This document shows, piece by piece, positions 18,207 to 50,218 of a stretch of DNA of 64,000 nucleotides. The first letter of the stretch is position 1. Each line of letters begins with the position of its first letter. The notes beneath the pieces were generated by a model, which saw only the letters and a program-made list of their open reading frames with translations, did no database searches and was not told where the DNA came from. The stretch comes from Halothiobacillus sp. (GTDB lineage Bacteria; Pseudomonadota; Gammaproteobacteria; Halothiobacillales; Halothiobacillaceae), in assembly GCA_016278265.1 (NCBI GenBank), contig JADQCE010000001.1, positions 372,001 to 436,000 on the forward strand, given 5' to 3'. Both the position numbers and the translations under genes were made by a program.

Positions 18207-18282
18207 GGTGCCGAGTGCGCATCGACGGGAAATAGGCGGCTTTCCAGCCCATTTGCATAGCACCGGGTGCGGAGCAGCCGGC

Positions 18283-18642: not shown

Positions 18643-18649
18643 CGCTTGA

Positions 18650-18829
18650 TCACTTGGGGCCGAACAACCACCACAGGATCAGGCCGAGGATCGGCAGGAA
18701 CAGGATGATCACGATCCACAGCGCCTTCATGCCGGCCGAGGCCGAGCTTTGCGCCACCTTGATGATCGCGTAGATATCCAGGAACAGGATGATCAGGCCA
18801 ACTAGGCCACCGTAGGGAAAATCGAGCAT
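18650..18829 (-). CDS. Small membrane protein with PLDc_N-like domain, 59 residues
   Basis: A 59-residue protein is encoded from an ATG at 18829 preceded by AAGGAGAT, an excellent ribosome-binding site. It consists of two hydrophobic helices, GLVGLIILFLDIYAIIKV and ALWIVIILFLPILGLILW, ending WWLFGPK. The two-helix pattern with the final WWxFGP is that of the phospholipase D N-terminal (PLDc_N) family of small membrane proteins, whose role is unknown. It sits between msrA and the DUF488 gene on the same strand. Confidence 0.85.
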   Translation of the reverse strand: MLDFPYGGLVGLIILFLDIYAIIKVAQSSASAGMKALWIVIILFLPILGLILWWLFGPK

Positions 18830-18862
18830 CGCTATCTCCTTGTGCGTTGTCTTTTGGGGTGA

Positions 18863-19333: not shown

Positions 19334-19412
19334 GGTCGTGCCTCCGGTTTGTTTACCATCCGGTGACAATAGCGCATCCGTCGTCGATTCGAGCCAACCG
19401 TGGAGATACCCC

Positions 19413-20177: not shown

Positions 20178-20268
20178 CTGTCTGCGGCTCGCCCCAGCGG
20201 AGCCGCCTGGGTGCCGTTGCGAGTGGCAGGTGGTGCGCGCGGTGTTTGGTGCCGTCCTTGACGCTCCT

Positions 20269-20294
20269 GGATTCCCGCTTCCGCGGGAATGACG
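20269..20294 (-). repeat. REP-like hairpin 3
   Basis: GGATTCCCGC/GCGGGAATGACG with a GGAA loop on the minus strand, in the 408-bp region between the glycosylase gene and glgP, which holds no gene. Confidence 0.8.
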
Positions 20295-20442
20295 ATCTGG
20301 GGGCCTCGTTAAGCGAGAGGCGGCAGAGATCAGGCGCCCCTTCAATCAGCGTGCACCGTTGTTCCGGCTGAGATCCCCGCTTCAACGGCTCTTGCCCTGC
20401 CGAGGAATAGGAACCTTCACCAGCTTCTCGATAGCCACCACG

Positions 20443-20468
20443 CATCATCCCCGCGCAAGCCGGAATCG
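20443..20468 (+). repeat. REP-like hairpin 4, degenerate
   Basis: ATCATCCCCGC-GCAA-GCCGGAATC shows the same layout with stem mismatches and a shifted left flank; an eroded copy next to an intact one. Confidence 0.55.
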
Positions 20469-20488
20469 AGTGAACGAGGCCACCACCC

Positions 20489-20516
20489 CGTCATTCCCGC
20501 GAAAGCGGGAATCCAG
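20489..20516 (+). repeat. REP-like hairpin 5
   Basis: CGTCATTCCCGC/GCGGGAATCCAG with a GAAA loop, intact, about 70 bp from the end of glgP. Confidence 0.85.
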
Positions 20517-20585
20517 AGAACGAAGCGACCAGAACTCAGACGCCAGCCCAACACCAATCGCGAGAACGCGGTAAAGCCAACCCCA

Positions 20586-23141
20586 CTACAACCAAACCAT
20601 CCGCCCCAACTCGTAAGGGTGCAGCAATGTCTCGTGTGTCGGCACGACCCGCAGCCGATAATCGACTTCCCCAGCCAGATCCGCGGGCAACGCAATTCGA
20701 TGCCGCCCTCGCGCCTGCTCGTCCACCGACTCGACCAGCTCGCCCACGACCACTCGCCGAGAGGCACCATCATCCAGCACCGCTTCACAACGAAGCGAGT
20801 GGGGCGGCAGGCCCGGGCTGGTGATGTCGATTTCGATGCTTGAGGGTTCCCCTTGGCGCATGATCGACTCGGGCGTACTGACCACCTCTGCCTCGACCTG
20901 CGCCCAGTTGGCGTCAAGCGTCTGCTCGAACTCGGCCCGCTCAACAGCGGCGCGGTAATTGTCCCGCGCCAACAGTCGACCGGCATCGATCGCCCGGCGG
21001 TAATGACGCTCGGCATAGTCCCGCACCATCCGCGAGGCGTTGAACCGCGGCAGGATGGTGGCGATGGCGTGGCGCTGCCAGGCGATCCACTCGACCGGCA
21101 GGCCCTTGGTATCGCTAGTGGCAGGCGCCTGGCGGCGATCGAACAGCGGAATCACCTCGGTCTCCAGCAGCGTCAGCAGGTCGTCGGCCTCGCGATCGTC
21201 GCGCTCGGCGCTCTCCGGGGTAGGTAAGAGCGACCAACCGTTGGCGACGCCCTTCTGATGATCGTGCCCTTCCGCCCACCAGCCATCGGCCACCGAGAGG
21301 TTGAGCACGCCATTGACACCCGCCTTCTGCCCGGAGGTGCCCGAGGCCTCCATGGGGTATTCCGGCGTATTCAGCCAGACGTCGCAGCCAGCCACCAGCC
21401 GCCGTGCCAGGCCCATGTCGTAGCCCTCGATCAGCAGGACATGCCCGGCGAAGCGTGGCTCGCCGCTCAACTCGTGAATGGTCTGCAACAGCGCCTGCCC
21501 CGGCTGGTCGGCGGGGTGGGCCTTGCCGGCGAAGACGAATACCAGCGGCCGCGGGCTGGTCTCGATCAAGCGGGCGAGCCGTTCACGGTCGTGAAAAAGC
21601 AGGGCGGCGCGCTTGTAGGTGGCGAACCGCCGCGCAAAGCCCACCAGCAGGAACTCGTCGACCGGCTGATCCAGTACCCGGCAGCGCTGCTTGAGGCGCA
21701 CGTGCCCTTGGCCGAATCGCTCCGTTTGTCGCTCGAGTCGCGCCTTGAGGTCGTTGACCAGATGCGTCTTGGCCGACAGGTGCATCGACCAGAGGCGACT
21801 GGGCTCGGTGTTTCTGACCAACTCACCGATGCCCGCCTCGTGCAGGTGATCGCGCCAATCGCGGCGGTTGGCGTCGAACAGCCGGGTCAGATCCCGGTTG
21901 AGAAAAGTTTCCACATGCACGCCGTTGGTGACGTGGGTCAGCGGGTTTTCCTCGGCCGGCACCTCCGGCCAGAAGGCCTGGCTCATCTGCGCAGCGACCC
22001 CGCCATGTACCCGGGAGACGCCGTTGTGCTGCCGCGAGCCGCGCAGGGCCAGGGCGGTCATATTGAATTGCTTGCCGTCGTGAGCCGGGTCGGCACCCAG
22101 CGCCAGCAGTCGGGAGGCATCGATGCCCAGAGTTGGCAGATGCGGCTGCCAGTGCGCCTCGACCAAATCGCGGGCAAAGGTATCGTGCCCGGCCGGCACC
22201 GGCGTGTGGGTGGTGAACAGGGTCGCGGCGGCGACGGCATTCAAGGCCGGGTCGAATGGCAGGCCGTCGGCGGTGAGCTCCCTCACCCGTTCGAGAATCG
22301 AGAAGGCCGCGTGGCCCTCGTTGATATGCCAGGCCGATGGTTCGATTCCCAGGGCCCGCAAGGCCCGCACGCCGCCCACGCCGAGCAGCACTTCCTGCTC
22401 CAGTCGCCGGCGTCGGTCGCCGCCGTAGAGCCGGTGCGTGATCTCGCGATCGGCGGCGGTGTTTTCGTCCACATCGGTATCGAGCAGATAAACGGATACC
22501 CGCCCAACCCGCGCCTCCCAGACTTGCGCCGTCACCACGCGTCCCGGGAATTCCAGGCTTATGTGGACCGGTTGCTCATCCCGCGTAGCTGGCTGGATGG
22601 GCAGGTGCGAGAAATCCAGATCCTCGAAGTGCGCATGCTGGCGCCCGTCGGCGTCGATGCATTGCTGGAAATAGCCTTGCCGGTAAAGCAGCCCCACGCC
22701 CACCAGTGATAGACCGAGGTCCGATGCCGCCTTGCAATGATCCCCTGCCAGAATCCCCAGCCCGCCGGAATAGATGGGCAGCGACTCGTGGAAGCCGAAC
22801 TCCGCGCAAAAATAGGCCACCGTCTCCTGCGGATCGATTACCGGCTCGAGCACGTCCATGCGTTCATCGGAGCAATGCACCTCGAACTCGCGCCAGACCG
22901 CCGCCAGTTCCGCCAGAAACGCCGAATCGCCCGCCGCCTCGTCCAGCCGCGCCTGTGGCGCCAGTTGCAGGAAACGCACCGGGTTGCCCTCCACCTGCGC
23001 CCAGGTGTCCGCATCGACGCGCTCAAACAGATCCCGCACCGCCCGCGACCGGCTGTAATACAGATTGCCGGCCAGCTCGTTCAATCGGGCAAGTGCCGTT
23101 GGCAGGGAAGGGCGGAGTTCCAAGTGGTGCATGGTGGGCAT
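20586..23141 (-). CDS. glgP: Alpha-glucan (glycogen/maltodextrin) phosphorylase
   Basis: This 851-residue enzyme phosphorolyses alpha-1,4-glucans to glucose 1-phosphate. It belongs to the compact bacterial and archaeal alpha-glucan phosphorylase branch rather than the E. coli GlgP type. The N-terminal domain has LAGNLYYSRSRAVRDLF and YFCAEFGFHESLPIYSGGLG; AWHINEGHAAF and FTTHTPVPAGHD follow; the pyridoxal-phosphate lysine is K606 in EASGTSGQKAGVNGVLNLS. A C-terminal beta-rich region of about 130 residues completes it. It is a single gene, flanked on both sides by REP-like hairpins. An in-frame ATG nine bases downstream of the chosen start is possible. Confidence 0.92.
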   Translation of the reverse strand: MPTMHHLELRPSLPTALARLNELAGNLYYSRSRAVRDLFERVDADTWAQVEGNPVRFLQLAPQARLDEAAGDSAFLAELAAVWREFEVHCSDERMDVLEPVIDPQETVAYFCAEFGFHESLPIYSGGLGILAGDHCKAASDLGLSLVGVGLLYRQGYFQQCIDADGRQHAHFEDLDFSHLPIQPATRDEQPVHISLEFPGRVVTAQVWEARVGRVSVYLLDTDVDENTAADREITHRLYGGDRRRRLEQEVLLGVGGVRALRALGIEPSAWHINEGHAAFSILERVRELTADGLPFDPALNAVAAATLFTTHTPVPAGHDTFARDLVEAHWQPHLPTLGIDASRLLALGADPAHDGKQFNMTALALRGSRQHNGVSRVHGGVAAQMSQAFWPEVPAEENPLTHVTNGVHVETFLNRDLTRLFDANRRDWRDHLHEAGIGELVRNTEPSRLWSMHLSAKTHLVNDLKARLERQTERFGQGHVRLKQRCRVLDQPVDEFLLVGFARRFATYKRAALLFHDRERLARLIETSPRPLVFVFAGKAHPADQPGQALLQTIHELSGEPRFAGHVLLIEGYDMGLARRLVAGCDVWLNTPEYPMEASGTSGQKAGVNGVLNLSVADGWWAEGHDHQKGVANGWSLLPTPESAERDDREADDLLTLLETEVIPLFDRRQAPATSDTKGLPVEWIAWQRHAIATILPRFNASRMVRDYAERHYRRAIDAGRLLARDNYRAAVERAEFEQTLDANWAQVEAEVVSTPESIMRQGEPSSIEIDITSPGLPPHSLRCEAVLDDGASRRVVVGELVESVDEQARGRHRIALPADLAGEVDYRLRVVPTHETLLHPYELGRMVWL

Positions 23142-23282
23142 GTCAGGGGCTCAAGGGAATGAGCTAACGAGTGTAAGGCTGAATCATGTCGGTGGTGTAA
23201 CAGGAAGGTTGCCGACCGAGGCGGCAGTGGCATTGCTGTGCCCCTGGAGGCGTCACCAGCCGGGCTGGGCTCGCCCCCCATC

Positions 23283-23308
23283 CGTCATTCCCGCGGACGC
23301 GGGAATCT
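23283..23308 (+). repeat. REP-like hairpin 6
   Basis: CGTCATTCCCGC/GCGGGAATC with loop GGAC, upstream of glgP. Confidence 0.85.
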
Positions 23309-23409
23309 CGAGAACGCAGCCACCAGGAGCCTCGGTTGGCAGCAGCGTAGAAGACATCTCATGACACAGGCCGGGAGAGTCTGCCCAGCGGCTCCGTCGA
23401 ACCAGCTAT

Positions 23410-23435
23410 GGATTCTCGCATCCGCGGGAATGACG
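23410..23435 (-). repeat. REP-like hairpin 7
   Basis: GGATTCTCGC/GCGGGAATGACG with one stem mismatch; inverted relative to hairpins 6 and 8. Confidence 0.8.
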
Positions 23436-23537
23436 ATGAGGTGCGTAAAGACGTCGTGGTGCCTATGTAGGCCGGTGCCATCGCTCGTATTACCCGCTGC
23501 CAGGGGCTGCTCTCTTGAGGCCCGCGAGCCCCCACAC

Positions 23538-23565
23538 CGTCGTTCCCGCGAAAGCGGGAACCCAG
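23538..23565 (+). repeat. REP-like hairpin 8
   Basis: CGTCGTTCCCGC/GCGGGAACCCAG with a GAAA loop. The T-to-G change in the left flank arm (GTTCCC) is matched by A-to-C on the right (GGGAAC), so pairing is kept. Confidence 0.82.
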
Positions 23566-23713
23566 CCATCGAACACACCAATACCCACCGGCAACCCCAA
23601 CACCAACAGAGCCCAACGCACCCCCTGGCATCACCACCCACCCCGTCATACACTCGGCAACAACGCCGCAGCACGCCTCCCGGCCACCAACCAAAAATTT
23701 TTCGCCCAAGGCC

Positions 23714-23740
23714 TAAAGGTCTGATCAGACACGCCGATAA
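23714..23740 (+). promoter_or_regulatory. Sigma28 (FliA) promoter of fliC
   Basis: TAAAGGTC, an 11-bp spacer and GCCGATAA match the sigma28 consensus TAAAGTTT-N11-GCCGATAA, with a perfect -10. It lies about 65 bp upstream of the fliC start and should drive the late flagellar genes. Confidence 0.9.
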
Positions 23741-23804
23741 GGGAACCGTAACCAAGAGAAAACGCCCCAAGATCGGGGCCCGTCTGTAAAGAGGAGACGA
23801 CATC

Positions 23805-25253
23805 ATGGTAATGGGCGTAAACACGAACATCATGGCGCTGAACGCGCAAAACCAGCTTCAATCGAGCCAGAGCGAGATGGGCAAGGCGATGGAGCGTCTG
23901 TCTTCCGGCCTGCGCATCAACAGCGCGGCGGACGACGCGGCCGGCCTGGCCATCTCCGAGCGATTGACCTCGCAGATCAACGGCCTGAACCAGGCGACGC
24001 GTAATGCCAACGACGGCATTTCCATCGCCCAGACCGCCGAAGGCGCCATGCAGGAATCCACCAACATCCTGCAGCGCATGCGTGAGCTGTCCATCCAGTC
24101 CGCCAACGGTTCCAACGCGTCTTCCGACCGCGCTGCCCTGCAAAAGGAAGTCTCGGCCCTGCAGGACGAACTGACCCGTATCGCCGACACCACCGCCTTC
24201 GGTACCCAGAAGCTGCTCGACGGCACCTTCGGCTCCCAGGCGCTGCAGGTCGGTGCCGAGGCCAACCAGACCATCGATATCTCGCTGCGCAATGTCTCGG
24301 CCGGTTCGATCGGCGGGCAACGCATTGATGGCGCGGGGTCTGCAGCCGGGACGACCGCCGCTGCGGCCGCCAACGACATCACTGCAGACACCCTCACCAT
24401 CACCAACTCGACGTCCTTGCAGGTCGCAAACGTCGATGTGGCTGCTGCTGACGAAGCGGACGACATCGCTGCCGCTATCAATGCCGTGTCCAGCGACACC
24501 GGGGTGAACGCGACTGCCTACACCGAGGTAGAGATCGCTTCAGACTACGCTGCTGGGATTACCGCAGGCACAATAGCGACCGACCAGGGCTCGACCGATC
24601 TGACGGGTGTTACCAGTGCCCAAGAGTTGGTGGATACCATCAACGCCGACAGCTCGAACACTGGGCTGAGTGCCTCGATCGACGCCGAGTCGGGCAATGT
24701 GCGGGTCGCCTCCAGCGACGGCCAGGATATCGACACCACGACCGTGACCAACGGTGCGGCCACCTTCACGGTTGACTCGGTTGTGGACGGCACTGCTGCC
24801 GGCTCTGCTGTAGACGCCACTGCCCAGGCCACAGCCACCATGGGCACGGTACAGCTCGATTCGATCGACTCCTTCACGGTTGCGGATGGTGGTGCCGGCG
24901 CCGCTGCGGAGATCTTCTCTGGAACGGCTTCTACCCTGAACGCGGTGGATCAGGTCGATATCGGCACGGCAGCTGGTGCGCAGAGCGCCATCTCGGTCAT
25001 TGACGGGGCCTTGGCCTCGATCAACTCCTCGCGGGCCGATCTGGGTGCGATCCAGAACCGGCTGGACTCCACGATCTCCAACCTGAACAATATCTCGGAG
25101 AACGCCACTGCGGCCCGCTCCCAGATCCAGGATGCGGATTTCGCCCAGGAGACCTCCAACCTGAGCCGCTCGCAGATCCTGCAGCAGGCCGGCACCGCGA
25201 TGCTCTCGCAGGCCAACGCGGCCCAGCAGAACGTACTGAGCCTGCTCGGCTAA
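23805..25253 (+). CDS. fliC: Flagellin
   Basis: This 482-residue protein polymerises into the flagellar filament after export by the flagellar type III system. Conserved D0/D1 ends are clear: [33 protein letters not shown] and [16 protein letters not shown] at the start, [20 protein letters not shown] and QQNVLSLLG at the end. The middle, about residues 175-385, is a low-complexity Ala, Thr, Asp and Ser-rich surface domain with beta-strand-like repeats. GAGGAGA is correctly spaced for the ATG at 23805. It is the only flagellin gene here and the first gene of the run fliC-flaG-fliD-fliS-fliT. Confidence 0.96.
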
Positions 25254-25266
25254 TCCGGGCTAACGA

Positions 25267-25293
25267 GATGACGTCCAGCGGACGGGCGTCATC
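25267..25293 (+). terminator. Hairpin between fliC and flaG
   Basis: GATGACG and CGTCATC form a stem extended by CC/GG, 14 bp after the fliC stop. There is no T run, so it is more likely an mRNA-stabilising or partial terminator structure that lets fliC be made in excess over downstream genes. Confidence 0.5.
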
Positions 25294-25318
25294 ACTTTGC
25301 ATATAAGGGGGTGGCATT

Positions 25319-25741
25319 ATGAGCGACATCAGCGCCTCGAATGCCTTTGGCAAGATGCCAAGCCTTTATGCGGCAACCGCTCGCACGGCCCAGGGTTCCA
25401 CCCCGGGTGGCGAGCGGTCTGTCGAATCCGGTCGACAGGTCAATGTCGAGGCCGCGAACTCCCAGGGGGGCAAGAATGCCTCCGGGGCCGCGGCCGAGAC
25501 GGCGTCGTCGGGTCTGGACCGGAAAGCACTCGAGCAGAAGGTCGAGGAGCTTTCCGACATGGTCCAGGGCCGCCAGCGTGACCTGTCGTTTTCGGTCGAC
25601 GATGACACCGGGCGCACCGTCGTCAAGGTGATCAACGCGCAGACCGAGGAAGTGGTTCGGCAAATCCCGATGGAGGAAGTCCTCGAGATTGCCCGACGGA
25701 TTGAAAGTGGGGAGGGCGGCATGCTCAAGCTGGAGGCTTGA
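25319..25741 (+). CDS. flaG: Flagellar protein FlaG
   Basis: This 140-residue protein belongs to the FlaG family, small accessory proteins that influence filament length. The first 60 residues are low-complexity. The FlaG core is C-terminal: LSFSVDDDTGRTVVKVINAQ, then EEVVRQIPMEEVLEIARRI, followed by a short tail. A strong GGGGGTGG ribosome-binding site precedes the ATG. It sits between fliC and fliD, its usual place in gammaproteobacteria with polar flagella. Confidence 0.92.
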   Translation: MSDISASNAFGKMPSLYAATARTAQGSTPGGERSVESGRQVNVEAANSQGGKNASGAAAETASSGLDRKALEQKVEELSDMVQGRQRDLSFSVDDDTGRTVVKVINAQTEEVVRQIPMEEVLEIARRIESGEGGMLKLEA

Positions 25742-25806
25742 GCAACGCCCCGCCGGGCTCAGGCCCATCCAAAGCAAACGGTTAACTTCTTCAGGAGTTT
25801 TTGACA

Positions 25807-27213
25807 ATGGCGATTACAAGCACAGGCATCGGCTCCGGCATTGATGTGGGCGGCATCGTCAGTCAGCTGGTTGCCGCGGAGGGTCGACCCGCCCAAAATC
25901 GCCTGGACCGGCGGGAAGCCGAGGCCCAGGCCACTATTTCTGCATTGGGTTCGCTCAAGAGCGTGCTCAACGAGTTCAAGGCGTCGCTGGCAGGGTTAAC
26001 GGACCTGGATGCGTTCCAGGCCCGCAAGGCCACCAGCGGCGACACGTCGATCTTCACGGCCACGGCCGACCAGACGGCCAGCGCCGGCAGCTACCAGATC
26101 GAGGTCGAGCGCCTCGCCCAGGGGCAGAAGCTGCGTAGCGGCGACTTCGCTACTGCCGACACCGCCGTGGGTACCGGCACCCTGACCATCGGCACCGGTG
26201 GCAACAGCTTCGATATCGCCGTCGATGCCGGCAACAACACGCTCGCCGGCATCCGCGATGCCATCAACGCCTCGCCGGACAATACCGGCGTGACCGCCAC
26301 CACGGTGAACGTGGATGACGGCGCCGGTGGCACGGTCAGTCGCTTGATCTTGACCGCCGACGAGACGGGGAAGGCTAACGAAATCACCGTGTCGACGGCG
26401 GACGATGACGGCAACAATATCGACGCCGCGGGCCTGTCCCAGTTGGCCTCCGGCAACCTTACCCAGTTGCAGGCGGCGGAAGATTCTTTGATCCGTATCG
26501 ACGGTCAGGCCGTGACCCGCTCGAGCAACACCATCGACGATGCCATCGACGGGGTGACATTGAGCCTAAAGAATGCCGAGGTGGGGGCGACAAATACCCT
26601 GGACGTGGCGCTCAACACGGGGGCGGTGAAGGCCAAGGTCAATGCGTTCGTCAAGTCGTACAACGAACTGATCAACACCACCAACCAGTTGCAGGGCTAT
26701 GACTCGGAGACGGGTCGGGCCGGCCCGCTGCAGGGGGATTCCACCCTGCGCACGGTGATGAACCAGTTGCGCCGCGAGATCGGCGGTTCGGTGGAAGGCG
26801 TCGCGGGGGCTTTCCAGTCGCTGGGGGCCATCGGGATCGAGACCCAGCGCGACGGCACGCTGGCCGTGGATGATGGCAAGCTCAATGACGCCATGGACGC
26901 GGACTTTGCCTCCATCGGCGAGATGTTCGCCTCGGGGAACGGCGTGGCCAACAAGCTGGATGATTTGCTTAAAGGCTACGTGGGATTCAACGGCATCCTG
27001 TCGAGCCGCACCGACAGCCTGAACAACCGGATCGACGGCATCAACGACGATCGCGAAAGCCTCAGTCGGCGTCTGCAAAGCTTGGAGTCACGCCTGCTGG
27101 ACCAGTTCAATGCCATGGATCAGCTGGTGGGCCAACTCAACTCGACTGGGAATTATCTTTCCCAGCAACTGAACAACCTGCCTTTCAATAACCTGGCAGG
27201 CGGCAACAAATAA
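25807..27213 (+). CDS. fliD: Flagellar filament-capping protein FliD
   Basis: This 468-residue protein forms the cap that guides flagellin folding at the filament tip. The N-terminus ITSTGIGSGIDVGGIVSQLVAAE is typical; the middle has Ala, Asp and Thr-rich hook-IN-like motifs (LAGIRDAINASPDNTGVTA); the C-terminal coiled region contains VKSYNELINTTNQL, LRREIGGSV and the final RRLQSLESRLLDQFNAMDQL. AGGAG lies nine bases before the ATG at 25807. It probably shares the sigma28 transcript with fliC. Confidence 0.94.
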   Translation: MAITSTGIGSGIDVGGIVSQLVAAEGRPAQNRLDRREAEAQATISALGSLKSVLNEFKASLAGLTDLDAFQARKATSGDTSIFTATADQTASAGSYQIEVERLAQGQKLRSGDFATADTAVGTGTLTIGTGGNSFDIAVDAGNNTLAGIRDAINASPDNTGVTATTVNVDDGAGGTVSRLILTADETGKANEITVSTADDDGNNIDAAGLSQLASGNLTQLQAAEDSLIRIDGQAVTRSSNTIDDAIDGVTLSLKNAEVGATNTLDVALNTGAVKAKVNAFVKSYNELINTTNQLQGYDSETGRAGPLQGDSTLRTVMNQLRREIGGSVEGVAGAFQSLGAIGIETQRDGTLAVDDGKLNDAMDADFASIGEMFASGNGVANKLDDLLKGYVGFNGILSSRTDSLNNRIDGINDDRESLSRRLQSLESRLLDQFNAMDQLVGQLNSTGNYLSQQLNNLPFNNLAGGNK

Positions 27214-27247
27214 AAAGCCGGCCTGACCTGAAAAGAGGGGATAAGCC

Positions 27248-27676
27248 ATGTACGCCAATGCCGCATTCGGTGCCCAGCAATATGCCAACGTCGGAGTGCG
27301 TTCCGGTATCGAGGATGCCTCGCCGCACCGCCTGATCCAGATGCTGTTCGAGGGCGGCCTGCAGCGTCTGGCTACCGCCAAGGGCGCTATCCAGCGTGAA
27401 GACCGCGCCGCCAAGGGCGAGCAGATCGGCAAGGCCATCGGCATTATCGGTGGTCTGCGCGAGTCGCTCCGGCCGGAGGGCGGCGAGCTCTCCGAGAACC
27501 TGGAAAGCCTGTATGCCTACATGCAGCGTCGCTTGCTGGAGGCCAACATCGAGTCGAGCATCGAGAAGCTCGAGGAAGTATCGGGTTTGCTGCGCGACCT
27601 CAAGGAAGCCTGGGACGGCATCGCGCCGGAAAAGGTTACCGATTCGGCTGGTGCTGATGTTCGCCAATCTGCCTGA
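27248..27676 (+). CDS. fliS: Flagellin export chaperone FliS
   Basis: This 142-residue four-helix chaperone binds the C-terminus of flagellin and keeps it from polymerising in the cytoplasm. Hallmarks are YANVGVRSGIEDASPHRLIQMLFEGGLQRL near the start (given here as two adjoining segments, the second from LIQMLF), and a helical second half ending with LRDLKEAWDGI. AGAGGGG precedes the ATG. It overlaps the next frame by 20 bp. Confidence 0.94.
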   Translation: MYANAAFGAQQYANVGVRSGIEDASPHRLIQMLFEGGLQRLATAKGAIQREDRAAKGEQIGKAIGIIGGLRESLRPEGGELSENLESLYAYMQRRLLEANIESSIEKLEEVSGLLRDLKEAWDGIAPEKVTDSAGADVRQSA

Positions 27677-27977
27677 CAACGCGCAGAACCTGCTCGCCCT
27701 GAGCGAAGGCATGCTCGCCTCCGCGAAGGCCGATGACTGGGAAGCCGTGATCGAGGCCGATGCGATGCGCCGGCCCATGATCGACCAGGTCATTGCCGAG
27801 GGCGCCCCCAACGATGCACCGCCCGCTGAATGGATACGCGAGTTCCTGGAGGAACTGCAGGCCATCAACGATCGGGTGGTCAAGCTGGGCGAAGAACGCA
27901 AGACCGTGATCCGCTCGGACCTGGGCGAGATACAGACCGGCAGCAAGGCAGTGAAGGCGTACGATCCGGAGCGGTGA
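27657..27977 (+). CDS. fliT: FliT-like flagellar protein
   Basis: This 106-residue, mostly helical protein follows fliS directly. FliT proteins are chaperones for FliD and, in enterics, regulate FlhDC. The N-terminal LLALSEGMLASAKADDWEAV, with the Trp-Glu pair typical of FliT, and the following ADAMRRPMIDQV support the assignment; identity in this family is always low. The ATG at 27657 overlaps fliS by 20 bp; a GTG two codons earlier is an alternative. It is the last gene before a terminator. Confidence 0.8.
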   Translation: MFANLPDNAQNLLALSEGMLASAKADDWEAVIEADAMRRPMIDQVIAEGAPNDAPPAEWIREFLEELQAINDRVVKLGEERKTVIRSDLGEIQTGSKAVKAYDPER

Positions 27978-28003
27978 TGTTCGTCGGTCAGGAGACTGAG
28001 ATT

Positions 28004-28026
28004 GGGGGCCGGGAGGCCCCTTTCTT
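28004..28026 (+). terminator. Intrinsic terminator after the flagellar operon
   Basis: GGGGCC-GGGA-GGCCCC followed by TTTCTT, 27 bp after the fliT stop. Confidence 0.8.
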
Positions 28027-28066
28027 GTGTCTGGCCGGTCTGTAGGCTCGTGTGGCTTCGGTCTCT

Positions 28067-28092
28067 GGATTCCCGCTTGCGCGGGAATGACG
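28067..28092 (-). repeat. REP-like hairpin 9
   Basis: GGATTCCCGC/GCGGGAATGACG, loop GCAA on the minus strand; inverted relative to hairpin 10, about 90 bp away. Confidence 0.85.
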
Positions 28093-28181
28093 GGTTTTTT
28101 TATCCGGGGTGTGTGCAACCCACATCGCTGCCCCGCGTCGAGCGGCCCTAAGGCCTGAATTCATCAATGCGCCTTCAGAGC

Positions 28182-28208
28182 CGTCATTCCCGCGTCCGCG
28201 GGAATCCA
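28182..28208 (+). repeat. REP-like hairpin 10
   Basis: CGTCATTCCCGC/GCGGGAATCCA with loop GTCC. Confidence 0.85.
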
Positions 28209-28270
28209 TGTCCGCCTGCCGATAGCAACGAACGTCGATCTTCGACCCCGCGTCAAACGATCGACTCATA

Positions 28271-28539
28271 TCAATCCTGCCAACCGGGATTGAACCCTTC
28301 GATCAATTCAACCTTCCATGCCCGCCGCCACTTCTTGATGGCCTTCTCCCGGGCAATGGCGCCTTCCATGGTCGGATGCATCTCGTGCCAGACCAGCGTA
28401 TGCACGCCGTAGCGACGGGTAAAACCTGCGACTAGATCGTTTTTGTGTTGCCAGACGCGCTGAACAAGGTCGCTGGTGAAGCCGACATAGAGCGTACCGT
28501 GTCGCCGGCTGGCGAGGAGGAGACGCCGGGTTGTTTCAT
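28271..28539 (-). pseudogene. GIY-YIG nuclease superfamily gene with a frameshift near its start
   Basis: The body encodes a small single-domain GIY-YIG protein (UPF0213/YhbQ-like): GTLYVGFTSDLVQRVWQHK, the RYGVHTLVWHE segment, and AIAREKAIKKW. The natural start is the ATG at 28539, preceded by AGGAG, which encodes MKQPGV; the next codons should give YLLASRR, but one base is missing at about 28520-28521 (GTC-TC-CTC-CTC), shifting the frame. Without the shift the protein would have 89 residues. The frame that stays open upstream of the lesion reads through a REP hairpin and is not a real N-terminus. A recent inactivating deletion or a sequencing error are both possible. Confidence 0.75.
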
Positions 28540-28643
28540 TCCGTTGAAACTCCTGGGTTTGGTTTTGTTGTCTCCTAAATGAAGCGATTCGTGCTCCATT
28601 GGGAAGACAAGTTATTCGGTTGTTTCTGGTGGCTCCGTTTCCT

Positions 28644-28669
28644 GGATTCCCGCTTTCGCGGGAATGACG
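28644..28669 (-). repeat. REP-like hairpin 11
   Basis: GGATTCCCGC/GCGGGAATGACG, loop GAAA on the minus strand. Confidence 0.85.
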
Positions 28670-28730
28670 ATCAGGGGGCAATCAAGCCCATTACGCCTTT
28701 ACTAAATGGGGTGTAACCAACTCAAAACGC

Positions 28731-28757
28731 CGTCATTCCCGCGGAAGCGGGAATCCA
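28731..28757 (+). repeat. REP-like hairpin 12
   Basis: CGTCATTCCCGC/GCGGGAATCCA with loop GGAA. Confidence 0.85.
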
Positions 28758-28854
28758 TCAAGTCCTCAGTGGTCCACGACATGTTAACTAGTGGTACAGC
28801 CTGGCCACGTGGTACTGACACTCGTCTCAGATAACCAAAACACACCACCAAAAC

Positions 28855-28881
28855 CGTCATTCCCGCGCACGCGGGAATCCA
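28855..28881 (+). repeat. REP-like hairpin 13
   Basis: CGTCATTCCCGC/GCGGGAATCCA with loop GCAC, same orientation as hairpin 12. Confidence 0.85.
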
Positions 28882-28958
28882 TGGAGTCATCGGTAAGCCA
28901 CGATAGGCTGGAGGTGGGTTCAGCCCGATCAAGTGGTGGCGTCGCCCGGCTCAAACAA

Positions 28959-29738
28959 TCACCCCTGCTTCGCTGCAACCGCCTTGATCGCCGGCATATC
29001 CACGCCCAGTTCTTCGGCCTGCGCCAACGCACGAGCCATACGCTGCGGCGCCGAGCGGCCCATGCACTGGTGCTGCGGGTCACCATCGAAGCCCTTCACC
29101 ATCCCGTCGATCAGGCGCTGGGGGTCGAATGCCTTCCCCACTTTCGCTTCCTGCAAGGCGATGACGTCCGCCGCAATGTCGCGAGCCAGTGCCTGGTGGT
29201 TGGCCCAGAGATCCTCGACATCACCACCGGTCTCGAGCCCGGCGATATTGGTGGTCAGGATGTAGACGTTCTTGATCACCAGTTCCTTGAGCATCTCGTC
29301 GGCATCAGCTACCGGGTGGGCGGGGATGTCGAGCGACTGCATCGCGGCGACCAGGGCATCGACCTTCGGCCCGTGGACGGGTGAGGAGATCAGCGGCTTG
29401 ACAGGCTTGCCCGGTTTTTTCTCGAACCAGATCGAGGCCACGGTCGGTGTCTCGATGCCGTACTTGCGCCAGTCGTCAGGGAGCAGTTCGTTCTGGATCA
29501 GCACGACGCGGTCGTGCCACGCGGACGGGATCTGCTCGAGCACCGAATCGAGGTCCTTTTCGCCGACGGCCACCAGCAGGCCATCGAGAAAGGGACGGGC
29601 GGACAGGGCGGCCTGGATGTTGGTGTCACGGCTGATGGGAAAGACCGGGTGGCCGGTCTTCAACAGGCCGTGGGCCAGTACCCCGCCGATCTCGCCGGTG
29701 CCGATCAGGCCCCATTCGGTGGCAAACGGTTGCGACAT
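28959..29738 (-). CDS. NAD(P)-binding dehydrogenase of the ketopantoate-reductase/6PGDH-like superfamily
   Basis: This 259-residue protein begins with a Rossmann fold, WGLIGTGEIGGVLAHGLL, followed by an all-helical C-terminal half. It has LLVAVGEKDLDSVLEQIP in place of a typical cofactor-site loop and the segment ASIWFEKKPGKPVK. No specific catalytic motif of ketopantoate reductase or proline biosynthesis enzymes is obvious, so the substrate is left open. AGGAGAG lies before the ATG at 29738. It starts 10 bp after roxA ends and is probably co-transcribed with it. Confidence 0.7.
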   Translation of the reverse strand: MSQPFATEWGLIGTGEIGGVLAHGLLKTGHPVFPISRDTNIQAALSARPFLDGLLVAVGEKDLDSVLEQIPSAWHDRVVLIQNELLPDDWRKYGIETPTVASIWFEKKPGKPVKPLISSPVHGPKVDALVAAMQSLDIPAHPVADADEMLKELVIKNVYILTTNIAGLETGGDVEDLWANHQALARDIAADVIALQEAKVGKAFDPQRLIDGMVKGFDGDPQHQCMGRSAPQRMARALAQAEELGVDMPAIKAVAAKQG

Positions 29739-29748
29739 CAATCTCTCC

Positions 29749-30951
29749 TCAGTCTTGTTCGTCTTCGTCGGGGATCAGCAGCTGCCCCGCGGTGAGTATC
29801 CTTTCCAGCAGGATGCGCGCGCTGGCGTTGCTGGCGCGTTCGGCGAGCGCCTCGCCGGGGACATGGACGTGTTGGGTCAAGAAGCGCGCGAGCGGCAGGG
29901 ACTCGGCATCCAACTCCTGGCTCTGCCCGTCGATGCACAGGTGGCCCGGGTCATCATCGTTCGGTTCCAGCAGCAGCCAGCGCGAGGCCGGAGTGCGTTG
30001 CAGTTCGCTGATCTCGTGCAGGTGGTCGAGGATGCCGACGATCTCCTCGTCGTGGTAGCGCGGGTAGAGGTCGGCGTGGTCGACGGGGCGCTCGGTCAGC
30101 GTTTCGGCGATCAGGCGGTCGAGCTGGTTGGCATCGGCCGTCATGGTCTCAAGGACCCACTCGCGCAGTCGCTGGCGGGTGGCTGGATCGAGTTCTCCGG
30201 GGTTGTCCCCGACCTTCAGGTCCGGGTCGCGGTAGCGCTCTTCGGGCGCCAGCGTGGCCAGTCGGTCACAGATGCCGCCGACAAGGTCGGCCTGCGTCGG
30301 GGCGCGGAAACCGATCGACCAGGTCATGCAGTCATCAACGGCGACGCCGTGGTGAGGAATGCCGGGCGGCAGATAGAGCATGTCGCCCGGCTCGAGCACC
30401 CATTCGTCCGTCGGGGTGAAGTCGGTCAGGATGCGGACATCCAGCCCCTCGCGGTAGGCAGTGTGCACGGGCGGGTTCTCGATCTGCCAGCGGCGTTGGC
30501 CGTGCGCCTGCAGCAGGAAGACGTCGTAGTCGTCGATATGCGCGCCGACCGAGCCGCCCGGCGGGGCGTAGGAGATCATCAGGTCGTCGATGCGCCAATC
30601 GGGCACGAAGCGGAAGCGCTCGACGATCTCCATCAGCTCGGGCACCAGCTTCTCGCAGTCGGTCACCAGCAAGGAGTAGCCGTCTTTCGGCAGGGCGCGG
30701 AAGTCCTCCTCGGTGAACGGGCCCATCTTGAGTTGCCAGTCGCGCTCCTCACCGTGCTCCAGGATCAGGCGCGACGGTGCATCCGCCTCGCAGGCCAACC
30801 CGGCCAGCTCCTCGGGGGCGATCGGGCTCTCGAAGCCCGGGAGGGCGCCGCGGATCAGTACGGGCTTTTTCTGCCAGTACTCGCGCAGGAACGTCTCGAC
30901 GGAGAGATCGCCGAGGACGTGATCGATGGGGGTGTTCGTCGATGCGGTCAT
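29749..30951 (-). CDS. roxA: Ribosomal protein L16 arginine 3-hydroxylase (cupin JmjC, YcfD type)
   Basis: This 400-residue 2-oxoglutarate/Fe(II) oxygenase hydroxylates an arginine of ribosomal protein uL16. The double-stranded beta-helix carries the iron ligands H138 and D140 in SVGAHIDDYDVFLLQAHG and a third histidine at 200/201 in PPGIPHHGVAVDD. FWQKKP-like YWQKKPVLIRGALPGF at the N-terminus and the C-terminal winged-helix region fit YcfD. It is the first gene of a two-gene minus-strand unit. Upstream (30952-31396) lie only REP-like repeats and the sqr terminator. Confidence 0.9.
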   Translation of the reverse strand: MTASTNTPIDHVLGDLSVETFLREYWQKKPVLIRGALPGFESPIAPEELAGLACEADAPSRLILEHGEERDWQLKMGPFTEEDFRALPKDGYSLLVTDCEKLVPELMEIVERFRFVPDWRIDDLMISYAPPGGSVGAHIDDYDVFLLQAHGQRRWQIENPPVHTAYREGLDVRILTDFTPTDEWVLEPGDMLYLPPGIPHHGVAVDDCMTWSIGFRAPTQADLVGGICDRLATLAPEERYRDPDLKVGDNPGELDPATRQRLREWVLETMTADANQLDRLIAETLTERPVDHADLYPRYHDEEIVGILDHLHEISELQRTPASRWLLLEPNDDDPGHLCIDGQSQELDAESLPLARFLTQHVHVPGEALAERASNASARILLERILTAGQLLIPDEDEQD

Positions 30952-31051
30952 GGCCGTTTCCCTGCGATTGAGTGCGTGTCCCCAAGTCTAACGGATAAGG
31001 AGGAAGGGGGAGAGTGTGGACGATCGCTGTGCGGGGATAACGTTCTCGGTT

Positions 31052-31078
31052 CGTCATTCCCGCGAAGACGGGAATCCA
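31052..31078 (+). repeat. REP-like hairpin 14
   Basis: CGTCATTCCCG/CGGGAATCCA with a CGAAGA loop; the inner stem pair is lost. Confidence 0.75.
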
Positions 31079-31168
31079 CACCCATATCATCGGCAGGACT
31101 CAGCGGTTCGTTTGCCGTCACTCCTTTTCCGCGGACGGTCTTTCGGGAATCAATGGGCTCCGTTCACT

Positions 31169-31194
31169 GGATTCCCGCCTTCCCGGGAATGACG
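31169..31194 (-). repeat. REP-like hairpin 15
   Basis: GGATTCCCG/CGGGAATGACG with an altered loop region; inverted relative to hairpin 14. Confidence 0.75.
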
Positions 31195-31327
31195 ACCTGT
31201 GGGCGGGGTGTCGGCGCCGGGCGTGGGTTCTCGCTCCGAGTTGTCGGGGAATGACGGGCTTGGAGGCTCGGGCGGCGCGGGGTTGAGGTGTTGTGCCCAC
31301 AAGGCAGTCCGCCACGATAGCGGGATG

Positions 31328-31360
31328 AAAAAAAACGGCGCGCCCGGAGGTGCGCCGTTG
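31328..31360 (-). terminator. Intrinsic terminator of sqr
   Basis: On the minus strand a CGGCGC/GCGCCG stem flanked by AA/TT is followed by eight T, 36 bp after the sqr stop. Confidence 0.88.
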
Positions 31361-31396
31361 ATGGTTTTGCATGCGGCCCCGCATCGGAGCGATCCG

Positions 31397-32743
<1,347 letters not shown>

Positions 32744-32822
32744 TCATCGACGGGCTGGGAAAAACAAGGGTTGGTCGACAAGAAACACAGTTTTGCTGAT
32801 CGGGTGGATTTTAAGCCTATGA

Positions 32823-32849
32823 ATAATAGATGAGTTCCTCTGATGTCAG
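32823..32849 (-). promoter_or_regulatory. Candidate promoter of sqr
   Basis: On the minus strand CTGACA, a 15-bp spacer and TATTAT lie in an AT-rich block (about 32800-32880) that stands out from the GC-rich surroundings. The spacer is short, so this is a weak assignment. Confidence 0.3.
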
Positions 32850-32896
32850 TATATTAGAAAACAATAAACCGGCGGCAGGACTTGTTTCGGATTTCC

Positions 32897-33865
32897 CTAG
32901 CCGCGCCAATCGGCCAGTTGCTCACGGGGGAAGCCGACGATCGATGACGGCGCCGGCGAGAGGTCGACCCACAGACCGCGGTGCTCGGGCCAGCGCTGGT
33001 CGAACCAATGCCGGCCGTTGCCCATCTCGATGAAGATCCACCCACCTGGGACAAGGCGCTCGGCGGCCTGATCAAGCAGCCGCTCGACCAGCGCCAGGCC
33101 CTGGTCGGGGGCGAACAGCGCGGCGGCCGGTTCGTGGTGGTATTCGTCGGGCAGGTCCTCGGCTTCGTCGGGATCGACGTAGGGTGGATTGCTGACGATC
33201 AGGTCGAAGACCAGCGGCTGGTCGTCGGCATCCAGCAGCTGGTCGAAGCCGTCGGACTGGATGAGTTCGACACGCTCGGCGAGTTGGTAATCGGCCACGT
33301 TATGCGAGGCGACTGCCAAGGCGCCGAAGTCGATATCACTGCCGACGACGTCGGCCTCGGGGAAATGCTCGGCCAGGGCGATGGCGATGCAGCCCGAGCC
33401 GGTGCCGATGTCCAGGATGCGTTCCGGTGCCGGACCGCGGTCGAGCAGTCCCTTGAAATCATCGCGAATCAGATCGCCGAAGGGCGAACGCGGGATCAGC
33501 ACGCGTTCGTCGACGTAGTAGGGCTGGCCCAGGAACCAGGCCCGGTTGAGCAGGTAGGCGGTGGGCACGTGGTCCAGGCAGCGCCGCCGGATCAGTTCGA
33601 CCAGGGAGCTCCGCTCGTCGGCCGTTAGGCGGGCCTGCCACCAGTCCGGCCCCAGACTCGGCGGCAATCGCAGACCTTCGAGCACCAGCCACGCCGCCTC
33701 GTCCAGGTAGCTGTGGGTACCGTGGCCGAGAAACACCCCGTGCTCGTCCATGCGGCTGGCGGCCCAGCGGATGAAATCGAGGATGGTCTCCAGATGGTCG
33801 TGGTTGCCAAGTGTTTCGGGGGCGGCATCGGACGGGGCGTTGGCGTGGCGCATGCGGTGGCTCAT
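32897..33865 (-). CDS. prmB: Ribosomal protein L3 N5-glutamine methyltransferase
   Basis: This 322-residue SAM-dependent methyltransferase modifies a glutamine of ribosomal protein uL3. The Rossmann motif ILDIGTGSGCIAIALAEHFP and the catalytic NPPY in IVSNPPYVDPDE are intact, and the PrmB-specific segments RCLDHVPTAYLLNRAWFLG and ERVLIPRSPFGDLI distinguish it from PrmC. The frame continues upstream, but the ATG at 33865 gives the normal length. No good ribosome-binding site is visible. It is divergent from psd. Confidence 0.93.
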   Translation of the reverse strand: MSHRMRHANAPSDAAPETLGNHDHLETILDFIRWAASRMDEHGVFLGHGTHSYLDEAAWLVLEGLRLPPSLGPDWWQARLTADERSSLVELIRRRCLDHVPTAYLLNRAWFLGQPYYVDERVLIPRSPFGDLIRDDFKGLLDRGPAPERILDIGTGSGCIAIALAEHFPEADVVGSDIDFGALAVASHNVADYQLAERVELIQSDGFDQLLDADDQPLVFDLIVSNPPYVDPDEAEDLPDEYHHEPAAALFAPDQGLALVERLLDQAAERLVPGGWIFIEMGNGRHWFDQRWPEHRGLWVDLSPAPSSIVGFPREQLADWRG

Positions 33866-34002
33866 CGGGAAGGAATGGGTAAGGACGTATGGGCGATTCA
33901 CTGCTCTGGCACAATAGTAACTGAGAGAACCTCTGCACGACCGATGCCGGGGGACGCGCCGGCGATGACCCAAGGCGATCACCCAGGCCACCACGAGGCG
34001 AT

Positions 34003-34917
34003 ATGACAAGCTCAAGCAATGCCGTGAAATGGCAATCGCGCCTGTGGGCGCGCATTCAGTACATCCTGCCGCACCACCTGATTTCCGGACTGGTGTTCCG
34101 GGTGACGCGTTGGCGGGCACCCTGGACGGAGTGGCTGATCCGGCGCTTCGTCAAGGCCTTCGGGGTGAATCTCGGCGAGGCGGCCCAGACCGATCCGGCC
34201 GACTACCCGACCTTCAATGCCTTCTTCACCCGGCCGCTGGCCGAGGGCGCCCGGCCGATCGAAGGGGCGGACACCACCTGGGTCAGTCCGGTCGATGGCG
34301 GGATCAGCCAGATCGGTCACATCCAGTCGGGCAATATCTTCCAGGCCAAGGGCCGGGCCTACACGGCCACCGAATTGCTGGGGGGCGACAAGTCCCTGGC
34401 CGAGCCCTTCAAGGACGGCTCGTTTGCCACGCTCTACCTCTCGCCGTCGGACTATCACCGCATCCACATGCCGGTGACCGGCACTTTGCGCGAGATGATC
34501 CACGTGCCGGGTCGACTGTTCTCGGTTTCGACCGGGACGGTGGCCGAAGTGCCGCGCCTGTTCGCCCGCAACGAGCGCCTGGTGTGCCTGTTCGACACCG
34601 CCGACGGCCCCATGGCGATGGTGCTGGTCGGGGCGATCAACGTCTCGGCCATCGAGACCGTCTGGGCCGGCCTGGTCACGCCCTCACCGCAGCGCCAGAT
34701 CGGGCGCTGGAGCTATGGCGGTGACACGGGGCTGTCGATCCGCCTCGAGCGCGGCGCCGAGATGGGGCGCTTCAACATGGGGTCGACCGTGATCTTGCTG
34801 GCGGCCAAGGGCGTCGAGTTCGATACCTCGTGGCAGGCGGAGATGCCGATCAAGCTGGGGCAGCGGTTGCAGGCGTCTGATTCCGGTGCCGAGGAAGAGG
34901 CGAAGCCCGAAGGCTAG
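34003..34917 (+). CDS. psd: Phosphatidylserine decarboxylase proenzyme
   Basis: This 304-residue membrane-associated enzyme makes phosphatidylethanolamine. It self-cleaves at the Gly-Ser bond of the MGST motif in FNMGSTVILL, around residue 258, turning the serine into the pyruvoyl cofactor. Other marks are FFTRPLAEGARPI, SPVDGGISQIG and LYLSPSDYHRIHMPVTG. GAGG precedes the ATG. It stands alone; downstream lie 300 bp with two REP-like hairpins and no gene. Confidence 0.95.
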   Translation: MTSSSNAVKWQSRLWARIQYILPHHLISGLVFRVTRWRAPWTEWLIRRFVKAFGVNLGEAAQTDPADYPTFNAFFTRPLAEGARPIEGADTTWVSPVDGGISQIGHIQSGNIFQAKGRAYTATELLGGDKSLAEPFKDGSFATLYLSPSDYHRIHMPVTGTLREMIHVPGRLFSVSTGTVAEVPRLFARNERLVCLFDTADGPMAMVLVGAINVSAIETVWAGLVTPSPQRQIGRWSYGGDTGLSIRLERGAEMGRFNMGSTVILLAAKGVEFDTSWQAEMPIKLGQRLQASDSGAEEEAKPEG

Positions 34918-34990
34918 GGCACCCCGTCTCGTGGCAGGGTTGGCCTAGATCGGTTTGGCGGCTCGTTCGAGAGCCGTGCCGTGGATCGCT

Positions 34991-35016
34991 GGATTCCCGC
35001 TTTCACGGGAATGACG
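34991..35016 (-). repeat. REP-like hairpin 16
   Basis: GGATTCCCGC/ACGGGAATGACG; one base pair of the inner stem is lost, and the loop is GAAA on the minus strand. Confidence 0.8.
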
Positions 35017-35140
35017 GTTTCTTTCGGGCTTGTTGGTTAACCGCTCGTGAAGTTCAGTCGCGGTGGTGACTGCAGCTGTCGTAACCGGATGGCAGCGGGG
35101 GGCAAAGGTAGCCGTCAAACGTCGAAAGTCCCCCACCCGG

Positions 35141-35168
35141 CGTCATTCCCGCGAAAGCGGGAATCCAG
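35141..35168 (+). repeat. REP-like hairpin 17
   Basis: CGTCATTCCCGC/GCGGGAATCCAG with loop GAAA. Last member of the family in the window; none is seen from here to 64 kb. Confidence 0.85.
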
Positions 35169-35217
35169 TAATCGAAGCCGCCCGGCTCTGCTGTGATCCA
35201 CGTGCCTCTTGTGGCCC

Positions 35218-42178: not shown

Positions 42179-43359
42179 GCCCCGGTTCACGCCAGGAAGG
42201 ATTCGAGCTGCCGACACCCAGCTCGGCGGATCAGGCCAAGAGCCTCGAGCTGATCGAGCAGCTTGTCGAGCGGATGCACGACGGCCCCCTAACGTTCGCC
42301 GATTACATGGCCACCGTCCTGTATCACCCCACGCTGGGTTACTACGGCAGCGGCCAGGTCGCCTTCGGTGCGGACGGCGATTTCATCACCGCCCCGGAGC
42401 GCTCGCGGTTCTTCACGGCCGGGCTGGCCTATGAGTGGCACCAGGCGCACGCGGCCGACCTGGGCGGCGAGATCCTCGAGATTGGCGCCGGCTCCGGGCG
42501 ATTGGCCATCGATCTCCTCGAACGGCTGGCCGCGGACGACGCGCTGCCCGAGCGTTACACCATCCTCGAGATCTCGCCGGCACTCGCCGCCCGCCAGGCA
42601 CAGAACCTGCGCGAATCGCTGCCCCCCGCACTGGTCGAGCGCGTGCGCTGGATCGATGCCTGGTCGCAACTCGATTGGTCGGGCGGCATCGTGGTCGCCA
42701 ACGAGGTGCTCGACGCCATGCCGGTGGAGCGATTCCGCTGGTGGCCGGGCCAGCCGGAGACGGCCGAACGCTTGATGGTGGGCTTCGACGGCCAGCGGTT
42801 CGTCTGGAACCATCAGCCGGCCGACGCACCATTGCAGGCGGCGGTCGAGGCGATCAGCGCGCGTGTCGAGCAGCCCATCGTCACCCCCCGCCAAACGGTG
42901 CTCGCGGAATACAATCCCGATCTCGCCGTCTGGTTGGGCGAGATGAGCGCGGCGCTCGGGGTCGGCGGGGAAACCTGGGTCTACCTGTTCGACTACGGTG
43001 GCCACACCGCCGACATCTACCGGGGTGACCGGACCGAGGGCACGCTCAAGTGTCATTACCGGCACCTGGCCCACGAAGACCCCTTCGTGTATCCGGGGTT
43101 GCAAGACATCACCGCCTGGGTGGACTTTCAGGCCGTTGAACAGGCCGCGCGCGAGGCCGGTTTCGCCATCGACGGCGAGCGCAGCCAAGCCCAGTGGCTG
43201 CTGGGCACCGACGTGCCTACACTGGTCGAGCGCGAATTGCAGGCATGTGATTCGCTGACCGATCAGGCCCGCCTGGCGCAGGAATTCCGCGAGCTGGTCA
43301 TGCCCACCGAGATGGGCGAGCGCTTTCGCGTGATGCGACTGCGACTAGGGAAAGTCTGA
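42175..43359 (+). CDS. MidA/NDUFAF7-family SAM-dependent methyltransferase (DUF185)
   Basis: This 394-residue protein belongs to the DUF185 family, whose mitochondrial member NDUFAF7 methylates an arginine of complex I. Signature segments are PLTFADYMATVLYHPTLGYY, FITAPERSRFFTAGLA, the SAM motif EILEIGAGSGRLAIDLLE, and NEVLDAMPVERF. The last codons and the TGA lie inside a dispersed repeat fragment (43346-43405), so the C-terminus LGKV may differ from that of relatives. It is translationally coupled to folB. Confidence 0.9.
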   Translation: MSPGSRQEGFELPTPSSADQAKSLELIEQLVERMHDGPLTFADYMATVLYHPTLGYYGSGQVAFGADGDFITAPERSRFFTAGLAYEWHQAHAADLGGEILEIGAGSGRLAIDLLERLAADDALPERYTILEISPALAARQAQNLRESLPPALVERVRWIDAWSQLDWSGGIVVANEVLDAMPVERFRWWPGQPETAERLMVGFDGQRFVWNHQPADAPLQAAVEAISARVEQPIVTPRQTVLAEYNPDLAVWLGEMSAALGVGGETWVYLFDYGGHTADIYRGDRTEGTLKCHYRHLAHEDPFVYPGLQDITAWVDFQAVEQAAREAGFAIDGERSQAQWLLGTDVPTLVERELQACDSLTDQARLAQEFRELVMPTEMGERFRVMRLRLGKV

Positions 43360-43405
43360 ACGAATGCCATACCACTCTGGCTTGGCGAGTCGTTCAGAGT
43401 TTCCC
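43346..43405. repeat. Internally deleted derivative of the structured element, copy C
   Basis: TAGGGAAAGTCTGAACGA at the left pairs with TCGTTCAGAGTTTCCC at the right. The left 32 bp after TA match copy B at 28 positions, including ATGCCATACC and CTCTG, but almost the whole interior is missing. Relative to copy B two base pairs in the stem have changed on both arms (C-G to A-T and A-T to G-C). It carries the stop codon of the preceding gene and could act as a terminator-like hairpin between convergent genes. Confidence 0.8.
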
Positions 43406-43416
43406 CGGGCGACTGA

Positions 43417-49946: not shown

Positions 49947-50218
49947 TAGGGAAACTCTGCACAAATGCCATACCGCTCTGCGAGCCTTGAGCCGGGTAAA
50001 TGCAAGGCGTTCGTCCGCCGCGGAAGAGTGGTTCTCTTTCCAAGGACGACAACGTAGCAGATGCCCGGCTCAAGGCTCGCCCTGCGGGGCCTGACGAGCC
50101 GTCCGTGCTCGGTGTCGCGTCGTCTTGACGTGGCCGCCGGCACGCCGGTGGCGACGCGCCTGGATCACGAACGGCTCGACAGGCCAGAGTGGCATGCCAT
50201 TTGTGCAGAGTTTCCCTA
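49947..50218. repeat. Structured dispersed element, full-length copy B
   Basis: This 272-bp element aligns end to end with copy A. The outer 21 bp are perfectly inverted, starting TAGGGAAACTCTGCAC and ending GTGCAGAGTTTCCCTA. Helices: 49959-49980 with 50185-50206, 49981-49996 with 50064-50079 (16 perfect pairs), 50022-50028 with 50034-50041, and a right-hand domain closed by GGCCTG/CAGGCC that also pairs CGAGCCGT with ACGGCTCG. It lies between divergent mtaD and argD. No protein frame is convincing. Confidence 0.87.

Follow-up and report, generated by a model that had tools for sequence, protein, structure and literature searches.

To our knowledge, there is no consensus on what moves ERIC and similar hairpin repeats or on what they do, more than 30 years after they became known. 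Correia/NEMIS and RUP have each been described in a single genus, RUP being tied to IS630-Spn1, and integron attC sites are imperfect palindromes in which the fold is conserved and the sequence is free. ERIC/IRU/RU-1 elements have TA at both ends with a target duplication, are non-autonomous, form a hairpin and are intergenic (PMC2229807). Correia/NEMIS and RUP, which belong to the TA-ended bacterial MITEs, have TA ends and a long hairpin, and their read-through RNA is processed or affects mRNA (PMC2229807). REPs are 20–50 nt long and carry a GTAG tag (PMC8266576), and REPINs are inverted doublets of structured units that spread in trans with single-strand recognition (PMC3116915, PMC8266576).

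The DNA analysed here (the window) is a stretch of 64,000 nucleotides, positions 372001–436000 of a 919,563-base contig in a genome of 2.73 Mb. It contains three copies, A, B and C, of a structured repeat that had been noted in a preliminary description. The features are listed below, where R1 is a covariance model built from modules found across phyla.

49947–50218, + strand: element B, full length (272 bp), TA at both flanks; homologous empty sites have a single TA
49947–49980, + strand: P1, left arm of the terminal stem (terminal inverted repeat), pairing with 50185–50218; covarying columns 8-265, 9-264, 21-252 and 23-250
49978–50087, + strand: P2, the conserved module in sense orientation; R1 score 73.3 bits, E 8e-20
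50002–50009, + strand: motif GCAAGGCG in P2 of element B
50050–50063, + strand: motif CAACGTAGCAGATG in P2 of element B
50080–50089, + strand: P4, a small CCC/GGG hairpin, CCCTGCGGG, separating P2 and P3; CCCNNNGGG in the consensus of 25 elements
50088–50184, − strand: P3, the second module, placed from the fold given by a mutual-information scan; in B it scores below the R1 cut-off
50185–50218, + strand: P1, right arm of the terminal stem, pairing with the left arm
1076–1345, + strand: element A, with R1 matches at 1107–1215 (+) and 1210–1314 (−)
about 43346–43406, + strand: element C, a deletion derivative of about 61 bp in which the P1 ends are fused via a piece of P3

Elements A and B align end to end, as claimed, with 84% identity, many differing sites and the compensated changes that had been described. 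The proposed extent of 270 bp was correct, save that the outermost TA on each side is target duplication; copy C is indeed related, but as the 61-bp deletion derivative listed above. The nested helices were likewise confirmed, although the small fourth arm (CCCTGCGGG, 50080–50089) and the nature of P3 had been overlooked. The fold has four arms, P1, P2, P4 and P3, and P3 is P2 copied in inverted orientation. With R1, both A and B match on the plus strand; a further module is detected on the minus strand of A, where the P3-equivalent domain scores 30.3 bits, and of many other elements, where scores reach 60.6 bits. The element is therefore quasi-palindromic, the CCC/GGG hairpin linking two modules in inverted orientation. 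As had been stated, it encodes no protein, and it is far more than a simple IS deletion. Like a MITE, element B has inverted ends and a target duplication and lacks an ORF. In element A, the TA and the A that follows it form the TAA stop codon of the upstream ORF (29–1078), which is holB-like by reading.

The repeat is dispersed, as had been proposed: a DNA search of its own genome gave 29 matches, 11 of them full length, and the family was found in 10 of the 11 genomes of the host genus (probably Guyparkeria), the eleventh being just 64% complete. The end pattern gave 103 ends in the same genome versus 4 in the control, R1 gave 60 modules, and genomes of the genus carry tens of copies each. 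Outside the genus, a search by DNA sequence returned a marginal match only.

Comparison with related genomes showed that the element inserts at TA and duplicates it. At the site of B, the homologous loci in four genomes are empty and have one TA, whereas the filled site has TA on both sides. One member of the genus has two full elements in direct tandem with one TA in common (L115). Streptomyces copies (n = 40 examined) are flanked by CTA/TAG (35), TTA/TAG (2), ATA/TAA (1) or CTG/TAG (2), and in acidobacterial copies TTA or TAA is apparently duplicated, as judged by reading. Copies lie mainly 3′ of genes, and the element's TAG or TAA is often the stop codon of the upstream gene. Streptomyces sp. 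NBRC 110028 has about 50 nearly identical copies at CTAG sites (L379–L418), 161 bp long or, in the search for pairs of ends, 165–192 bp, several of them identical and about half lending a TAG stop to the preceding gene; we interpret these as a recent burst with no transposase visible. We conclude that mobility of the element is well supported.

Several loci are of separate interest. The TA upstream of an argD-like gene that holds B here holds a copy in the opposite orientation in another species (L067) and an apparent short derivative in a third (G004:C16:115141-115236), so that this TA is either a hot spot or a place of in-place inversion. Two genomes of a single genus carry, at what is apparently the same position, a single module of near-identical sequence (L364, L365) that is possibly domesticated. 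At another locus (L221) the module tops a palindrome whose arms, about 185 bp each, are 92% alike, and a class of 355–365 nt with the same ends has an additional helix within one module (L166, L167).

Selection on the fold, which the preliminary description had put forward, was examined in two alignments. Among 93 full copies from the host genus, a blind all-against-all scan for mutual information ranked helix pairs highest (columns 81-89, 8-265, 9-264, 21-252, 153-228 and 23-250); columns 81-89 are GC in 58 copies, AT in 34 and GT in one. Three pairs reached E<0.05 against a tree-based null, all three within the structure, in a family so shallow that this test by itself has low power. With 25 non-redundant two-module elements from many taxa, less than 72% alike, 15 pairs were significant and 13 of these lie within the structure; 23 of the 25 elements are 265–272 nt long. 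For the helices, parsimony on the copy tree gave 166 double changes leading directly from one pair to another, compared with 170 changes that produced wobble and 190 that produced an A-C mismatch. In the genome of B, other elements that carry these ends adopt an identical fold shape built from wholly different helices. Between subfamilies and phyla all long helices are rewritten, and total length and the unpaired or loop-flanking motifs around GCAAGGCG...AACGCCGCAGATG are kept. We conclude that a selected structure is well supported, the statistical covariation being found both in the 93 copies and in the 25 elements. For the outer ~20 bp of P1, however, the covariation needs no fold, because both ends must suit one transposase.

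The sharing of the module between phyla had escaped the first description. The genome collection was searched with a pattern of 21 bases in which GCAAGGCG and AACGCCGCAGATG flank a free gap of 28–56, and for which about 3 matches are expected at equal base frequencies; at least 121 were observed. Among the matches listed, 111 of 121 fall in a narrow length class of 59–63 nt, and they include named isolates of Streptomyces, Anaerobium, Microbulbifer, Thioalkalivibrio, Lampropedia and Guyparkeria. Others of the matches listed are in Lachnospiraceae and in assemblies of Acidobacteriota, Planctomycetota, Desulfobacterota and other groups; metagenome assemblies may be misbinned, but the isolates by themselves cover three phyla. 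In the basal stem of 35 modules that are less than 80% alike, 499 of 630 pairs are Watson-Crick, compared with 271 ± 12 after an exchange of partners among the modules. For 30 aligned cross-phylum modules, standard pairs fill 89.7% of the cells of the basal helix (65.5 ± 1.2% in shuffles, 33–44% when the arms are slid), and both sides have changed in 190 cells versus 60 ± 6 in shuffles.

The search of this and other genomes with R1 found further copies in many taxa. Within Pseudomonadota, 87 of 398 genomes have a match at E<=1e-5; any long perfect hairpin can reach about 25 bits with R1, so that only higher scores are to be trusted and the roughly 41 genomes with best matches at E<=1e-9 are the safer count. 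No Rfam 15 family matches at its gathering score, and relaxed thresholds gave no credible weak match. A phage collection contained no match, and the lone match in a viral contig (L317) does not have the fold and appears to be fortuitous. Exact motif strings occur in papers as unrelated matches only, and in the literature searched, with most subscription journals outside its scope, no description of the cross-phylum module was found.

The family of B resembles ERIC in having TA ends with a duplication, in being non-autonomous, in forming a hairpin and in its intergenic location. However, ERICs are 127 bp long with a single hairpin, whereas element B has 272 bp and two modules, and the ERIC terminal inverted repeat is TATACYC...TACTTCAAGYTGCA where element B instead has TAGGGAAACTCTGCACAAAT. 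The ends of members from Photobacterium, Pseudoalteromonas and Vibrio match those of ERICs from E. coli and Klebsiella at 16–20 of 25 bases (0 of 20000 shuffles), compared with at most 11 of 25 for 22 other members. The Photobacterium element has both modules, scoring 32.8 and 19.7 bits with R1. R1 does not recognise ERICs themselves, which score 2.5–5.1 bits, at the expected place and strand in three cases (L430, L433, L434), and AAGGCG and CAACGC motifs were noted in them by eye. Part of the superfamily therefore has ends in common with ERIC, but we do not call B itself an ERIC. It is possible, at somewhat less than even odds, that all these repeats form a pan-bacterial class of mobile element defined by its folded module and not by its ends or a transposase. 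Within this class, Pseudomonadota and Acidobacteriota would have a four-armed form with two modules, Streptomyces and Lachnospiraceae would have a form with one module, ERIC would be an offshoot, and one widely conserved host factor would read them all.

Other known repeats are more distant. Correia/NEMIS and RUP share TA ends and a long hairpin with the element but are without the cross-phylum module. Like attC, the element keeps its fold over its sequence; it is, however, a dispersed repeat inserted at TA, and no R-box or attC boxes were seen by reading. YPAL/RU-2 of Yersinia, at about 168 bp, is near the single-module class in size, and was rejected as a relative since its published sequence (PMC2759123) is, by reading, without the module motifs. 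REPs and REPINs with their RAYT (TnpA-REP) resemble the element as inverted doublets of structured units spreading in trans. Identity with them is ruled out by tag, size and RAYT association: the unit is about 110 nt with another motif and no GTAG/CGTC tag, TA is duplicated, and the RAYT of the genus has its own REPs. As a separate observation, more than 12 copies of a short palindrome, GTCATTCCCGCGNNNGCGGGAATCCA, lie in both orientations within 18043–35184 of the window (for example at 20489–20516, 23537–23564, 28066–28092, 28854–28881 and 35141–35173), and this palindrome fits the CGTC-tagged REP superfamily (PMC3733652).

A fold that acted solely as a double-stranded cruciform would show wobble as often as A-C mismatches. 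In Guyparkeria their ratio is 49:51 in P1, 83:62 in P2 on the sense strand and 77:38 in P3 on the minus strand, which is its sense strand (p=0.0002 for P2 and P3 together). Cross-phylum modules have 52 GU versus 22 AC, and in 28 of 35 the fold of the sense strand is the more stable one. In the 25-element alignment, several rows of which are both readings of one element, the ratio is 54:18 in P2 but 32:31 in P3, and the asymmetry of P3 is therefore not uniform. Part of the wobble excess could come from a strand-biased mutation process, and RNA and single-stranded DNA predict the asymmetry alike. Single-module elements are weakly biased in orientation relative to genes (11:6 in one genome; 18:9 with others, p=0.12, not significant), the bias running weakly in the direction expected for read-through RNA.

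No autonomous partner with these ends was found in the genome of B or in one Streptomyces genome, nor did the Streptomyces genome with about 50 copies contain a long pair of ends. About 100 inspected loci showed no IS-like element, and, leaving the L221 palindrome aside, no longer element with an internal gene was found. The tests for DDE transposases took in DDE_3 and DDE_Tnp_1: DDE_3 (IS630-type) occurs in none of the 11 genomes of the host genus and DDE_Tnp_1 in one, with no DDE_Tnp_1 in another module-rich genome and no DDE_Tnp_1 gene bearing the right ends in Streptomyces. Y1 transposases are present in 6 of the 11 genomes of the genus, whereas the element is in 10. Twelve Y1 loci had no convincing module alongside, and weak R1 matches at two of them are GTAG REP hairpins. 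Y1/RAYT was rejected as the partner on these grounds, the RAYTs of the genus being flanked by their own GTAG REPs and the weak matches being perfect hairpins. At L193 (about 1900–1980) and L194 (about 1227–1420), Y1 transposase genes are flanked by GTAGGTCGGGCTTCAGCCCGACA hairpins; this is an ordinary REPtron in two Guyparkeria species, distinct from the element. An autonomous partner could have been lost, be located elsewhere or match in a few terminal bases only.

We propose, with a probability of about 0.5, that B belongs to a superfamily not recognised before and is a non-autonomous mobile DNA element whose ends are used in trans and whose inverted modules act single-stranded, probably in read-through RNA. 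A transposase in trans would recognise the ends as double-stranded DNA and move the element by TA-inserting cut-and-paste with a DDE-like step; with one transposase recognising both ends, these would have to change together. The modules would act most likely within read-through transcripts, a reading favoured by the position of copies downstream of genes and by the inversion of the modules, which gives one sense copy whichever side transcription comes from. The sense module may be bound or processed by a widely conserved, still hypothetical host factor, whose action would make insertions near genes tolerable and so allow the element to spread. Mobilisation in trans, one of the possibilities first raised, fits the TA duplication and the finding of no autonomous copy. 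A second, movement as a mobile RNA, is not borne out: nothing indicates a reverse-transcribed intermediate, and the TA duplication argues for DNA cut-and-paste. It is improbable that B is simply a MITE derived from an IS5- or IS630-type transposon and that its good folding is incidental. The long inverted ends and the TA or TNA duplication would suit such a MITE, but no transposon of this type with these ends was found, and an internal module kept across phyla while its helices are rewritten would not be expected.

The main rival to action in read-through RNA is that a recombinase or HUH-type transposase reads the modules as folded single-stranded DNA, as integron integrases read attC and TnpA-REP reads REPs, the element being a mobile hairpin that moves when single-stranded in replication. 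Such a mode would account for structure being kept rather than sequence, for two inverted modules, as in REPINs (PMC3116915), and for the tolerance of wobble on the sense strand. We nevertheless consider it rather unlikely, since TA duplication is unexpected under single-strand transposition, Y1 is in 6 of 11 genomes and the element in 10, the two Guyparkeria Y1 genes inspected adjoin their own GTAG-type REPs and not the element, and replichore bias is absent in one complete genome (13 versus 8). Complementarity of the arms might instead arise from a DNA process such as template switching or quasi-palindrome correction, with no selection for a fold, as had also been suggested. Wobble and A-C mismatches in equal numbers, as in P1 (49:51), are expected of a strand-blind process, and double changes often occur in concert. 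The fixed unpaired motifs, the constant length, the inverted module and the strand asymmetry of P2 and P3 are left unexplained by it; this process is hard to hold for P2 and P3 and, for the element as a whole, we give it little credence.

A single folded module links repeats that formerly seemed unrelated, and what moves and binds them becomes testable. The sharing of the module across phyla makes the hunt for one binding partner a concrete one. Repeats catalogued genus by genus can be one family that is visible by structure only, because all helices are rewritten and searches by sequence fail beyond a genus, and the many copies that sit on stop codons offer a natural experiment in what gene 3′ ends tolerate.
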